Shown here one piece after another: positions 10,155-63,666 of a stretch of DNA of 64,000 nucleotides (position 1 is its first letter; each line of letters opens with the position of its first letter). Source of the stretch: Bdellovibrio sp. ZAP7 (GTDB lineage Bacteria > Bdellovibrionota > Bdellovibrionia > Bdellovibrionales > Bdellovibrionaceae); NCBI RefSeq assembly GCF_006874645.1, contig NZ_CP030082.1, positions 434,001 through 498,000 of the forward strand. The letters are read 5' to 3'. Position numbers and translations under genes: made by a program. Below the pieces are notes generated by a model. It had not been told where the DNA came from and ran no database searches. It saw nothing but the letters and a program-made list of their open reading frames with translations.

Positions 10155-10263
10155 GCAATATATGCGATTTGGAGTGCTCTATTGTGAGAACACAAGGAAT
10201 TCCACCGTACCAAGGTCAAGTTTCTTACAACGCTTACCGATGAGTCATGAACGGGGGATTGTG

Positions 10264-10797
10264 ATGAATAGAGGCTGGTTGGTTATTCTTGCCGGGTGTC
10301 TCATATTGGGATTTCAAAACTGCAGTCAGACGAATTTATCTGCGGCTGATTTTCCCAGCACTAGTTCACACATCGTCACTCCATCTGTTGGCGGAGCTTC
10401 CGATGCCGACGAGTCACAAACAATTTCTGCACTAGAAATCCCAGTCAGTGGGGGAGTTCTTTCCGTTGATGCTTCGACAGGACGAATTTCACTTCTTGGG
10501 CAAAATCAACAAGTGCTCGAAGAATCCTGTCTGCCAGCTGCAGAAATCGCAGAGCTACAAAGCTATTTGAAATCCAGCAACATCTGCGGAAAATCAGTGG
10601 ATGCTTCTTTGCAATGCGCACAAGTCTATTCCTCAGGCTATGCAAGCCTGATCATTGGTGATCAGAAAATGAATCTGGGCGAGAGCTATGATTCTTGCGG
10701 CCGAGGCTTCAAAGACATATGTGGCGATCAAGCCCAGTCCTTCCGCGGCCTCGTAGCCTACATCCAAAAAAACTTCCACGGTCTACTCTGCGAATAG
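10264..10797 (+). CDS. Probable lipoprotein, hypothetical
   Basis: 177 aa from ATG 10264, which is preceded by GGGGGATT. The N-terminus MNRGWLVILAGCLILGFQNC looks like a lipoprotein signal with Cys20 as the likely lipidation site, although FQNC is not a textbook lipobox. The mature part is Ser/Ala-rich, then carries Cys pairs (ESCLPAAE, SNICGKS, LQCAQVY, DSCGRGFKDICG, LLCE). No family recognised. Its stop codon lies inside the first arm of the dispersed repeat at 10796-10947. Confidence 0.7.
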   Translation: MNRGWLVILAGCLILGFQNCSQTNLSAADFPSTSSHIVTPSVGGASDADESQTISALEIPVSGGVLSVDASTGRISLLGQNQQVLEESCLPAAEIAELQSYLKSSNICGKSVDASLQCAQVYSSGYASLIIGDQKMNLGESYDSCGRGFKDICGDQAQSFRGLVAYIQKNFHGLLCE

Positions 10798-10947
10798 GTA
10801 CGGCCTTACTTAAAAAGGTACTTACTTACCTGTCGGATAATACTTAATAACTAGTGAAAATAAAAAGGCCAGTGCAATTTGCACCGGCCTTTTTTAATTG
10901 TTAACTAGGAAAGTGTGCCATGGCCCTTGCAGGTAAGGCTGTACCTT
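10796..10947. repeat. Inverted repeat arms around a terminator (GGTAC repeat, copy 1)
   Basis: Left arm 10796-10830 (AGGTACGGCCTTACTT, then AAAAAGGTACTTACTTACC) and right arm 10931-10947 (AGGTAAGGCTGTACCTT) are inverted copies either side of the terminator at 10862-10895. The stop codons of both flanking genes lie in or touch the arms. The same arrangement recurs at 63185-63330. Confidence 0.75.
10862..10895. terminator. Bidirectional terminator between lipoprotein gene and alaS
   Basis: Stem AAAAAGGCCAGTGC / GCACCGGCCTTTTTT with one mismatch, and T-rich on both outer sides. Confidence 0.9.
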
Positions 10948-13669
10948 AAAGACCTAGTGTGCTGCGTACTTTCGTGAATGCATCACCGATCTTAGAGCGG
11001 TCAGGAGCTGCACCTTGAGCAAAGTCAGGACGGCCGCCACCTTTACCACCCATGATCGCAGCCACTTCTTTCAGAACGTCGCCGGCTTTATGATCGCCAG
11101 TTAGATCTTTAGAAACGGAAACGATGATTGGGTTTGAGCCATCACCTTGGCCGACAACCACGACAATTCCAGATTGGATTTTGTTTTTAAGATCGTCAGT
11201 AACTTTTGCCAAAACTTCGCGGTCGTCCATTGGGACGTCTGCCAATACAAGTTTTGCAGCGACACCGGATTTAGATTTGAATGCCATTGCTTTACCAGCA
11301 AGTTCATCCACATTCACTTGGCCACCTTGAAGTTTCTTGATTTCTTTCTCAAGAGTTTTCACTTGCTCTTTGATCGACTCTACACGATTTGCCAAAGTCG
11401 CCTTTTCGCCAGTTACTTCCAAGTGCTTCAAGTAGTGAGCAGATTTTTGCAAACCAGCTGCTGCCAAAGCCTCGTCCAAGTGGGCGATAGAGCTCATGGC
11501 GTATTTAACTGCAGAATCACCCGTGATTGCTTCCACGCGACGTACGCCGGAGCTTACACCAGATTCAGAAACGATTTTGAACAGGCGAATATTCGCAGTG
11601 TTTTTAACGTGAGTACCGCCGCAAAGCTCACAAGAGAAATCTCCCATCGTCAGTACGCGAACGTCGTTAGCGTACTTTTCGCCGAACAATGCCATCGCAC
11701 CTTTTTCGATCGCTTGCTTGTGCGGCATTAATTCAGTTTTGACTTCAAGACCGCGAGCGATTTGTTCGTTCACCATCTCTTCGATCTTGCGGATCTCTTC
11801 AGTGCTTACTGGTTTATTGTGAGTGAAGTCGAAACGAGTTTTATCAGCGTCAACCAATGAACCCGCTTGAGTTACATGCACACCCAATACTTTACGAAGA
11901 GCTGCGTGCAACAAGTGCGTCGCGGAGTGATTGCTTGCCGTGTTTCTTCTTTCAACTGCATCGACACCGCTGACAACTTTCGCACCCGTCTTGAAGGAAC
12001 CGTGTTCAACCTCTACGTGGTGAAGAATGATGTCGTCGATTTTCGTCGTATTCGCTACGCGAGCACGATTAGTGTCTTGCATGATGTAACCAACGTCACC
12101 AGCTTGACCGCCGCCCTCACCATAGAATGCAGTTGCATCCAGGATAATTAGACCCGTGTCGCCGGTTTTAAGTTCGTTTACAACCGCTTGGCCATTAGAA
12201 AGAGCCATTACAGTACCATCGCCGATTGTACCATCGTAACCCAAGAACTTCACAGACTTACCTGATTGAAGATAGTCTTTGGCAAATTTGATCATGTGAG
12301 CTTCGTCAGCTCCCATGGATTTACCTTTCCACGAAGCTTTGGATTTCGCACGATTTGCTTCCATTTCTTTTTCGAAAGCATCTTCGTTCACTTCAATACC
12401 GTTTTCATTCGCAATTACACGAGTCAAATCGGCAGGGAAGCCGTAAGTGTCGTACATACGAAATACAACTTCGCCAGAAAGTTCTTTAACTCCTGCCGCT
12501 TTTGCTTTTGCAAGCTCTGCTGTCAGGATTTCAGTTCCTTTGTCTAAAGTTGCCAAGAAGCGGTCTTCTTCGTCACGGATCGTGTTTAGGATATGATCGC
12601 GACGAGTGGAAAGTTCCGGATAAACTTTGCCCATGTTTTCGATCAAGGCTTCCGCCATACCTGGCAAGAAAGATTTGTCGGCAGAAAGTTTACGTCCGTA
12701 ACGGATTGCACGTCTCATGATACGGCGAAGTACATAACCACGGCCTTCGTTCGATGGCAAAGCACCGTCAGCTATCAAGAATGAAGTCGAGCGGCAGTGG
12801 TCAGCCAATACGCGAAGAGCAGAAGTTGTTTCTGCCGCTTTTGCATCAGTCGCCAAGACTTTTTTGTCAGTCACGTATTTAACGCCACCGATTTTACAAG
12901 CCAGTTCGATCATTGGCAGGAACAAATCTGTATCGTAGTTATTGAATTTACCCTGCATCGCCGCCGTCACACGCTCAAGACCTGCACCTGTATCCACAGA
13001 TGGTTTTGGAAGCGGTGTCAAAGTCCCTGGCGGATTTTCAAAGTACTGCATGAATACCAAGTTCCAGATTTCCACGAAACGGTCTTCACCTGCTTCGATA
13101 CCTTTGAACGGATCAGAAATTTTACCGGCTTCAGGACCGTGATCGTAGAAGATCTCCGTGCAAGGACCGCAAGGACCTGTGTCGCCCATTTTCCAGAAAT
13201 TGTCTTTGTCGAAACGGAAAATGCGATCGCGAGGGATACCTTCTTGAGTGTGCCAGATGTCAGCTGCTTCATCGTCAGAGATATGAACTGTCACATAAAG
13301 CTTTTCTTTGGGAATAGCCAAAGTCTTGGTCAAGAATTCCCAGGCAAAGTGAATCGCGTCTTTCTTGAAGTAATCGCCGAAAGAAAAGTTACCCAACATT
13401 TCAAAGAAAGTGTGGTGACGTGCTGTAAAGCCTACGTTTTCCAAGTCATTGTGTTTACCACCGGCGCGCACACATTTTTGCGAAGTCACGGCACGAGAGT
13501 AATCACGCTTCTCAAGACCCAAGAAAGTATTTTTAAATTGATTCATACCCGCGTTTGCAAAAAGCAAGGTCGGATCATTTTCCGGAATCAAAGAAGAAGA
13601 AGCGACAGCTTTGTGTCCATTCTTTTCGAAGTATTGAATAAAAGCATTTCTGATCTCAGAGCTTTTCAT
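10946..13669 (-). CDS. alaS: Alanine-tRNA ligase
   Basis: 907 aa from ATG 13669 (AAAGG upstream). It charges tRNA-Ala. Class II catalytic blocks are seen (ENDPTLLFANAGMNQFK, RHHTFFEMLGNFSFGDYFK, GDTGPCGPCTEIFYD). The editing domain has HSATHLLHAALR and the CGGTHV zinc/editing motif (FSCELCGGTHVKNT). The C-terminal C-Ala domain has the Gly-rich MGGKGGGRPDFAQGA block. Length is close to normal. Its 5' end lies 14 bp inside the end of recX, so the two are translationally coupled. In-frame codons upstream to 13699 belong to recX and are not needed. Confidence 0.97.
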   Translation of the reverse strand: MKSSEIRNAFIQYFEKNGHKAVASSSLIPENDPTLLFANAGMNQFKNTFLGLEKRDYSRAVTSQKCVRAGGKHNDLENVGFTARHHTFFEMLGNFSFGDYFKKDAIHFAWEFLTKTLAIPKEKLYVTVHISDDEAADIWHTQEGIPRDRIFRFDKDNFWKMGDTGPCGPCTEIFYDHGPEAGKISDPFKGIEAGEDRFVEIWNLVFMQYFENPPGTLTPLPKPSVDTGAGLERVTAAMQGKFNNYDTDLFLPMIELACKIGGVKYVTDKKVLATDAKAAETTSALRVLADHCRSTSFLIADGALPSNEGRGYVLRRIMRRAIRYGRKLSADKSFLPGMAEALIENMGKVYPELSTRRDHILNTIRDEEDRFLATLDKGTEILTAELAKAKAAGVKELSGEVVFRMYDTYGFPADLTRVIANENGIEVNEDAFEKEMEANRAKSKASWKGKSMGADEAHMIKFAKDYLQSGKSVKFLGYDGTIGDGTVMALSNGQAVVNELKTGDTGLIILDATAFYGEGGGQAGDVGYIMQDTNRARVANTTKIDDIILHHVEVEHGSFKTGAKVVSGVDAVERRNTASNHSATHLLHAALRKVLGVHVTQAGSLVDADKTRFDFTHNKPVSTEEIRKIEEMVNEQIARGLEVKTELMPHKQAIEKGAMALFGEKYANDVRVLTMGDFSCELCGGTHVKNTANIRLFKIVSESGVSSGVRRVEAITGDSAVKYAMSSIAHLDEALAAAGLQKSAHYLKHLEVTGEKATLANRVESIKEQVKTLEKEIKKLQGGQVNVDELAGKAMAFKSKSGVAAKLVLADVPMDDREVLAKVTDDLKNKIQSGIVVVVGQGDGSNPIIVSVSKDLTGDHKAGDVLKEVAAIMGGKGGGRPDFAQGAAPDRSKIGDAFTKVRSTLGL

Positions 13670-14141
13670 AGATAACCTTTCTAACGGTCTCGGAATCAAA
13701 TCCTCGTGAAGTCAGCAAGCGTCCTACGCGTGCTTTTTCCTCTCGAGAAAACTTATAATCTTCATTAAATTTATTCGTCACAATCGCCATGGCCTTATCC
13801 AGTTCCAGCGCAGCATCGGTCTCCACAGTGGGCAGGCCTTTTTCTTTCAGGTAGTTGTTGATGTAACAGATACCCTTGTTGCGACGGTGAAGCGTGTCGG
13901 CCAGGCGGGCAGCGTAGTCAGAAGGATCGCCCAACCAATTTTTCTCGTTGGCAAAGGAGATTGCTTCATCGATGGCTTCGTCGCTGCCATCCTCGTCTGT
14001 GAATTTCCCGCGCAACTTGGTTCTAAGCTCTTGCTCAGAATGATCACGAGCCGCCAACAGATCCATCACTTTGCGTTTAGCAGCAGCGATTCTGTCTTGT
14101 TGGCTTTCTTGTTCATTTTGTGGGTCTTTTTCATCAGACAT
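13656..14141 (-). CDS. recX: Regulatory protein RecX
   Basis: 161 aa, normal length. Three-helix RecX repeats are visible: MDLLAARDHSEQELRTKLRGKF, the DEAISFANEKNWLGDPSDYAARLADT segment, and GRLLTSRGFDSETVRKVIYEKL at the end. A charged Gln/Glu leader occupies residues 1-18. RecX binds RecA filaments and limits them. It sits upstream of and overlaps alaS, whereas recA is about 5 kb away on the other strand, a split of the common recA-recX-alaS order. Confidence 0.9.
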   Translation of the reverse strand: MSDEKDPQNEQESQQDRIAAAKRKVMDLLAARDHSEQELRTKLRGKFTDEDGSDEAIDEAISFANEKNWLGDPSDYAARLADTLHRRNKGICYINNYLKEKGLPTVETDAALELDKAMAIVTNKFNEDYKFSREEKARVGRLLTSRGFDSETVRKVIYEKL

Positions 14142-62940: not shown

Positions 62941-63174
62941 ATGGCATCAGAGCAATTACCCATCAGTGGCGCGATCTACAAGCATTACAAAGGAAAGCTC
63001 TATCAAGTGATCGGAGTGGGCAAACACTCTGAAACCATGGAAGAAGTGGTTTTGTATCAATGCCTTTATGAAAATTCATTGGGCCGTTTGTGGACTCGTC
63101 CATTAGCCATGTGGAACGAACTCGTTGAAGTCGACGGCAAAAAAATTCCACGCTTCCAGTTCCAATTCAATTAA
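62941..63174 (+). CDS. DUF1653 domain protein
   Basis: 77 aa. The DUF1653 pattern is complete: IYKHYKGKLYQVIGVGKHSETMEEVVLYQCLYE, GRLWTRPLAMWNELVEVDGKKIPRFQF. Small single-domain cytoplasmic protein of unknown role. Cotranscribed with the HIT gene. The GGTAC repeat array begins 10 bp after the stop. Confidence 0.92.
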   Translation: MASEQLPISGAIYKHYKGKLYQVIGVGKHSETMEEVVLYQCLYENSLGRLWTRPLAMWNELVEVDGKKIPRFQFQFN

Positions 63175-63184
63175 TCAAAAAGGC

Positions 63185-63330
63185 AAAAAGGTACGTCCTT
63201 ACCTAAAAAGGTACTTCCTTACTTGCTATAAAAAAAAGCCACCGGTGGATACCCGTGGCTTTTTTAATTTTTAATCGGGTAAGGCCCTACCTTTTTAAGG
63301 CCCTACCTTTTTAGGTAAGGACGTACCTTA
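63185..63330. repeat. Inverted repeat arms around a terminator (GGTAC repeat, copy 2)
   Basis: Left arm 63185-63224 (AAGGTACGTCCTTACCT then AAAAAGGTACTTCCTTACTT). Right arm 63276-63330 holds several reverse copies, ending AGGTAAGGACGTACCTTA. The last TTA is the reverse complement of the stop codon of the leftward gene, exactly as at 10946-10948. Confidence 0.85.
63232..63266. terminator. Bidirectional terminator inside the repeat array
   Basis: AAAAGCCACCGG / CCCGTGGCTTTT with TGGATA loop; T-rich outward both ways. Confidence 0.9.
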
Positions 63331-63666
63331 TTCTGGGATTTGGCAGCTTACTTCTAGTAGGACGTCTCTTCTCCAGATGGTGTTAACAACGGAGTCGCCG
63401 GCTTTCAGTAAAGTTGCGTCGGCGTAGTAGCGGCCTTCACCTGGAATATCAAAAATTTCTAGAGATACACGGCTGCCGTCGTTGTTGCGGATGCGGAAGC
63501 TGAAACCGTCGATGTCACCAATTTTACCGTAGCCGTTCAGAGCAGGCTTGATGACCGTCTCCAATTGCTTGTCGTTGTTTTCAGTAACTGTGCAGGCTAC
63601 CTTCAGATCCGCCGCGTGTGCGACTGTGCCTGTAAGAATCAATGCAGCCAAAGCTAGTGATTTCAT
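63328..63666 (-). CDS. Small secreted hypothetical protein
   Basis: 112 aa. Signal peptide MKSLALAALILTGTVAHA. Mature beta-rich domain with an N-terminal Cys (VACTVTEN) and a C-terminal Cys (EVSCQIPE), probably linked. Similar in size and layout to the protein at 9673-10068. Ribosome site AGGAGGAA. Its stop codon comes from the repeat arm. Confidence 0.78.
   Translation of the reverse strand: MKSLALAALILTGTVAHAADLKVACTVTENNDKQLETVIKPALNGYGKIGDIDGFSFRIRNNDGSRVSLEIFDIPGEGRYYADATLLKAGDSVVNTIWRRDVLLEVSCQIPE

Follow-up and report, generated by a model that had tools for sequence, protein, structure and literature searches.

The window, that is, the whole 64-kb stretch of Bdellovibrio sp. ZAP7 DNA that was analyzed, contains two intergenic regions between convergent genes in which short inverted repeats, referred to as arms, enclose a hairpin. 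At locus 1, which lies between a putative lipoprotein gene and alaS, the features are as follows.

10162–10797, + strand: putative lipoprotein gene, 211 aa, from the open reading frame (ORF) list, with a lipobox-like GFQNCS in the translation
10795–10810, + strand: outer left arm TAGGTACGGCCTTACT, 3 mismatches to the pattern AAGGTACGTCCTTACC
10815–10830, + strand: inner left arm AAGGTACTTACTTACC, a pattern match, second arm in tandem
10862–10894, no strand assigned: resident terminator hairpin with A/T tracts, called by the terminator scan
10932–10947, − strand: right arm AAGGTACAGCCTTACC, 2 mismatches to AAGGTACGTCCTTACC, overlapping the alaS stop
10946–13699, − strand: alaS, alanine--tRNA ligase (TIGR00344, 979.6 bits)

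The first-pass annotation had described inverted arms around a terminator at this junction, with the stop codons of both genes lying in the arms, and both descriptions were borne out. The arms are present at 10795–10830 and 10932–10947, the TAG of the putative lipoprotein gene (10795–10797) forms the first bases of the left arm, inside TAGGTACGG, and the TAA of alaS, which reads TTA at 10946–10948, shares 2 nt with the right arm. The enclosed hairpin qualifies as a predicted intrinsic terminator (a G+C-rich hairpin followed by a T run), and the pairing of the arms was reflected in fold z-scores of −5.3 and −4.3 on the two strands, compared with shuffled sequence. Pfam and NCBIfam profile searches gave no match for the putative lipoprotein gene. 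Among related genomes, the ortholog in G022 carries GGTACGGACACACTTTCTCCAT at the same base as the outer left arm, the tandem second arm is found in G021 as well, and a hairpin resembling the terminator is present in G011, G021, and G022. The alaS–lipoprotein junction of G019 has its terminator enclosed by arms of a different family (GGTACCTGCTTCC), which suggests that this spot has been hit repeatedly.

At locus 2, the features are as follows.

62941–63174, + strand: DUF1653 gene (PF07866, E 7.8e-27), TAA stop at 63172–63174
63188–63203, + strand: outer left arm AAGGTACGTCCTTACC, exact match
63208–63223, + strand: inner left arm AAGGTACTTCCTTACT, 2 mismatches to the pattern
63232–63265, no strand assigned: terminator-like hairpin between the arms, with 15-nt arms of its own that are 93% complementary, followed by a T run
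63278–63293, − strand: inner right arm AAGGTAGGGCCTTACC, a pattern match, with a further degenerate arm at about 63294–63312
63314–63329, − strand: outer right arm AAGGTACGTCCTTACC, exact match, overlapping the stop of the leftward ORF
63328–63666, − strand: leftward ORF of 112 aa, from the ORF list, with a TAA stop (TTA at 63328–63330)

Here the TAA of the leftward ORF overlaps the right arm, as had been noted at first; the left arm begins 13 nt beyond the DUF1653 gene stop, which lies outside the repeat, so that only one stop is in contact with it. The arm pairing gave fold z-scores of −9.1 and −8.9 on the two strands against shuffled sequence, the consensus terminator scan made no call for the hairpin at 63232–63265, and the leftward ORF had no match in Pfam or NCBIfam profile searches.

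Arm copies and the transposase genes that they flank

A search of the window with AAGGTACGTCCTTACC, allowing up to 3 mismatches, gave seven matches, all within the two intergenic regions named above, against 0.1 expected, and none of 100 shuffles gave seven. In the whole window genome (G000; 4.12 Mb, one contig), AAGGTACGKMCTTACY had 46 matches at up to 1 mismatch, compared with 3 for the reversed-pattern control, and 34 and 39 copies were found in G015 and G021, respectively. Copies were examined as stretches around such matches, so that the counts may miss divergent copies elsewhere. The family was nearly restricted to the genus among the 40 genomes searched and was patchy inside it, ranging from none to 46 copies. 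An Rfam search of the window gave no match. Exact matches to AAAAGGTACGKMCTTACYT were observed on four contigs of Paraglaciecola.

The dispersed arms occur as singles and as pairs. In G015, taken as Bdellovibrio bacteriovorus kdesi, most paired copies are a palindrome of about 69 bp that holds no gene and whose halves are the two arms, and the same two ends immediately flank a gene for a 229-aa PF01797 tyrosine transposase. Four more transposases, which are 50–54% identical, were found in G019, G010, G022, and G021, the gene in G021 carrying an internal TAG. Those of G019, G021, and G022 are enclosed by inverted GGTACGGACACACTTT arms, and for that of G010, which lies at a contig end, one GGTACGGACACACTTT arm was found. 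In the window genome, the search for a cognate transposase was negative, the nearest (40%) bearing GGTAACAGTTCCC arms, so that the arms of this genome look orphaned as judged from sequence.

These arms are most probably (at a rough probability of 0.8) the non-autonomous, dispersed ends of a Bdellovibrio family of RAYT-like tyrosine-transposase elements of the TIRtron kind. TIRtrons are tyrosine transposases between long inverted repeats (PMC3733652), and the likeness lies in a Y1 (PF01797) gene placed directly between inverted repeats of more than 15 bp, as in G015, G019, G021, and G022, and in repeats that are also dispersed, as singles, dimers, and clusters in TIRtrons and as singles and pairs in Bdellovibrio. 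In contrast to TIRtrons, the Bdellovibrio arms often enclose a resident terminator, and the window genome is one in which no cognate gene was found. RAYTs are defined as being flanked by inverted REPs (PMC2817692), and the arrangement of inverted palindromic repeats on either side of a PF01797 gene is likewise shared with RAYT-REP/BIME systems, or REPtrons (PMC2817692, PMC8266576), and with REPINs (PMC3116915). The copies in Bdellovibrio number in the tens and not in the hundreds, the GTAG foot of the GTAG class is replaced by arms that begin with GGTACG or GGTAAC, and the transposase scored just under the cut-off of the NCBIfam model REP_Tyr_transpos (70.5 bits against 80; E 1.4e-19). In the literature searched on RAYTs, REPs, and HuH elements, Bdellovibrio was not mentioned, and no paper on these repeats was found.

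MITEs of DDE transposons are also short and gene-free with inverted ends, and the 69-bp copies are MITE-like; they differ in their linked transposase, which is a HuH/Y1 enzyme, and in the flanks of 13 kdesi copies, which revealed no common target-site duplication. An assignment to Tc1/mariner-IS630 elements, which duplicate a TA target, was dropped because the duplication was not consistent and the linked gene encodes a tyrosine transposase. It would also be conceivable that the copies are plain bidirectional intrinsic terminators that have become alike by convergence, as some of them are perfect hairpins with A/T tracts. Strong folds accompanied by T runs were obtained for simple arm pairs. 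The loci share a specific sequence of 16–20 bases, however, which is patchy among species and recurs at the ends of transposase genes, and this association with a transposase refutes such a convergence, leaving it a very slight chance.

A second palindrome family, GGTAACAGTTCCCTTTT, is present in the window genome in 23 exact copies at 25 places, from 220717 to 4033618, and has its own transposase at 2474784 with the GGTAACAGTTCCC arms mentioned above. In this family, 9 of 21 stop-facing arms lie at −1 to +2 nt and in 5 more the arm itself contains the stop, as GG-TAA-C, and some of its sites in the window genome are empty in G022. This second RAYT-linked family of the same genome behaves alike and is counted in support of the arms being transposon ends. 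Around 3674186, 3041103, 906515, and 525639 of the window genome, a different PF01797 group (DHVHLLVRG motif) is found amid repeated GGGGTATCGGTCA words, which may represent a further repeat family with a transposase of its own. Other Bdellovibrio transposases have inverted ends of their own, for example GGTGCCTGG, GGTGCCAGGTCC, and GGTTCCCGG, nearly all of which start with (A)AGGT, and the genus seems rich in transposase-linked repeat families.

Position relative to stop codons and gene orientation

It had been proposed that the repeat supplies the stop codons of the flanking genes. At locus 1, the stop of the left gene meets arms in G022, G021, and G010, and the alaS stop has arms at or within a few bases in G022 and G021. 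In G005, the terminator stands alone and a TAG ends the same gene, and the sites of the second family (GGTAACAGTTCCC arms) that are empty in G022 already have a stop at or about the same codon. The proposal was not upheld: orthologs without arms stop at the same codon, indicating that the arm overlaps or abuts a pre-existing stop. The terminator was likewise rejected as a cargo of the arms, because it is specific to its locus and is retained by orthologs that have few arms or none.

The distances of the copies to stop codons and the orientation of the adjacent genes were determined in G000, G015, G021, and G022, with genes called around the copies by a simple codon-usage script and not taken from curated annotation. 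As the null for stop distance, each element was slid within its own free space; a null over the whole gap (41 of 133 against 4.2) was too lenient and was replaced by this one. As a result, of the 93 outermost arms in G000, G015, and G021 that face a stop, 36 lay at −1 to +2 nt from it, compared with 11.2 expected, and G000 alone gave 17 of 39 against 3.8; in these counts, the two arms of a pair are not wholly independent of each other, and sites are partly shared by descent. Many arms sit tens of bases away from a stop. The 97 occupied gaps of the four genomes comprised 45 convergent, 46 tandem, and 6 divergent ones, while the baseline of gaps is 16–18% convergent and 18–32% divergent, by length or by count. 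The copies are, accordingly, not spread without regard to stop codons or orientation. The suggestion of insertion or selection at convergent 3′ ends holds as to non-random placement and, through the identity with transposase ends, as to insertion; convergent ends are not required, as about half of the repeats sit between co-directional genes, and selection is only possible.

The contact with stop codons is in register. The stop-adjacent codons of the four genomes were 33 TAA, 8 TAG, and no TGA, although TGA makes up 12.5% of stops, and the junctions, arranged by distance, were TAA-AA-GGTAC (22), TAA-A-GGTAC (5), TAA-GGTAC (6), and TAG-GTAC (8). Among stop-adjacent arms, 18 of 34 have CT ahead of the A-run, compared with 6 of 93 other arms, which fits the published cleavage of REPs at CT (PMC8266576). 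Intergenic spread, a convergent bias, and contact with stop codons are shared with RAYT-REP/BIME systems and REPINs; most convergent REPs are reported to sit no more than 20 bp from each of the two 3′ ends, and REP termini are said often to give TAG stops to flanking genes (PMC3733652).

Such positions might have been forced, if random insertions had been purged from genes in a gene-dense genome and the remaining copies had been left near stops in tiny convergent gaps. About a quarter of the convergent gaps are indeed about 1 nt or less, and some occupied gaps, such as that at G015 1576370, have almost no free space. The excess survives the correction for free space per element, however, it is also seen in long gaps (636074, 1677435, and 2140069; all +2), and C before T is enriched at the stop-adjacent arms only, which makes forced placement improbable. 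A more specific idea, which we hold tentatively and regard as rather unlikely, is that the transposases target the stop codon itself, cutting after T (often CT) or TA and joining an AAAAGG, AGG, or GG end that re-forms TAA or TAG in frame.

Arm change between close genomes and the proposed origin

G022 and the window genome share about 90% identity. At or near the same positions of loci 1 and 2, G022 has arms on both sides that are of the GGTACGGACACACTTT type, like those enclosing its own transposase gene. When nine paired loci of the two genomes were compared, 19 arm positions differed, of which 13 were altered on both sides with the pairing kept, 4 on one side, and 2 on both sides with the pair lost. 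That whole types were replaced on both sides points to conversion between copies, to template switching, or to re-insertion, and not to stepwise compensation, although a hairpin under selection would show a similar pattern. For the GGTACG family, the two closest genomes yielded no clean pair of an empty and a filled site, most sites being occupied in both.

The arms could instead be selected 3′-end RNA structures, in which a bidirectional hairpin after the stop, often around a terminator, ends or shields both convergent transcripts, with the transposon origin being history only. The stop register and the convergent excess are consistent with this, as are the preservation of pairing between species, the A-run and T-run around the stem, and the high stability of the folds (simple arm copies, −39.7 and −38.5 kcal/mol; locus 1 of G022, −72.8 kcal/mol). 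Against it, both loci in the window already have resident terminators, relatives such as G005 live without the arms, the family is missing from several species of the genus, and the arms have been swapped as whole subtypes that match transposase ends. We consider such selection possible but rather unlikely.

Taken together, insertion is well supported, since the arms are identical to the ends of a tyrosine-transposase element, and selection for a 3′-end function is possible. For the dispersed transposon ends, we infer that a transposase, present or past, put hairpin units or single arms into gene-free spots, probably by single-strand cutting and joining. An insert beside a stop codon would be harmless, because the A-run and the GG with which the arm starts preserve the reading of the stop as TAA or TAG. 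Where two arms face each other with a resident terminator between them, they may later have been rewritten together, via conversion between family copies, hairpin template switching, or re-insertion, and would thereby stay complementary. In a secondary role, the arms may add to the termination or 3′-end protection of both transcripts. What weighs against this explanation is that the arms enclosing a terminator differ from a simple insert of one unit, together with the negative search for a cognate transposase in the window genome, the transposase score under the NCBIfam cut-off, and the failure to find a clean pair of empty and filled sites for the GGTACG family between the two closest genomes.

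This analysis provides Bdellovibrio predators with a repeat family and its likely mobilizer. Base-level counts and the orthologs of close species show a register between the repeats and stop codons and a joint change of facing arms. If the transposases do target stop codons, the 3′ ends of genes would be safe insertion sites, and the facing arms there would afterwards be rewritten jointly, with the resident terminators between them. It is now a testable matter whether RAYT-type enzymes are directed to the 3′ ends of genes or whether the cell keeps the hairpins for its transcript ends.
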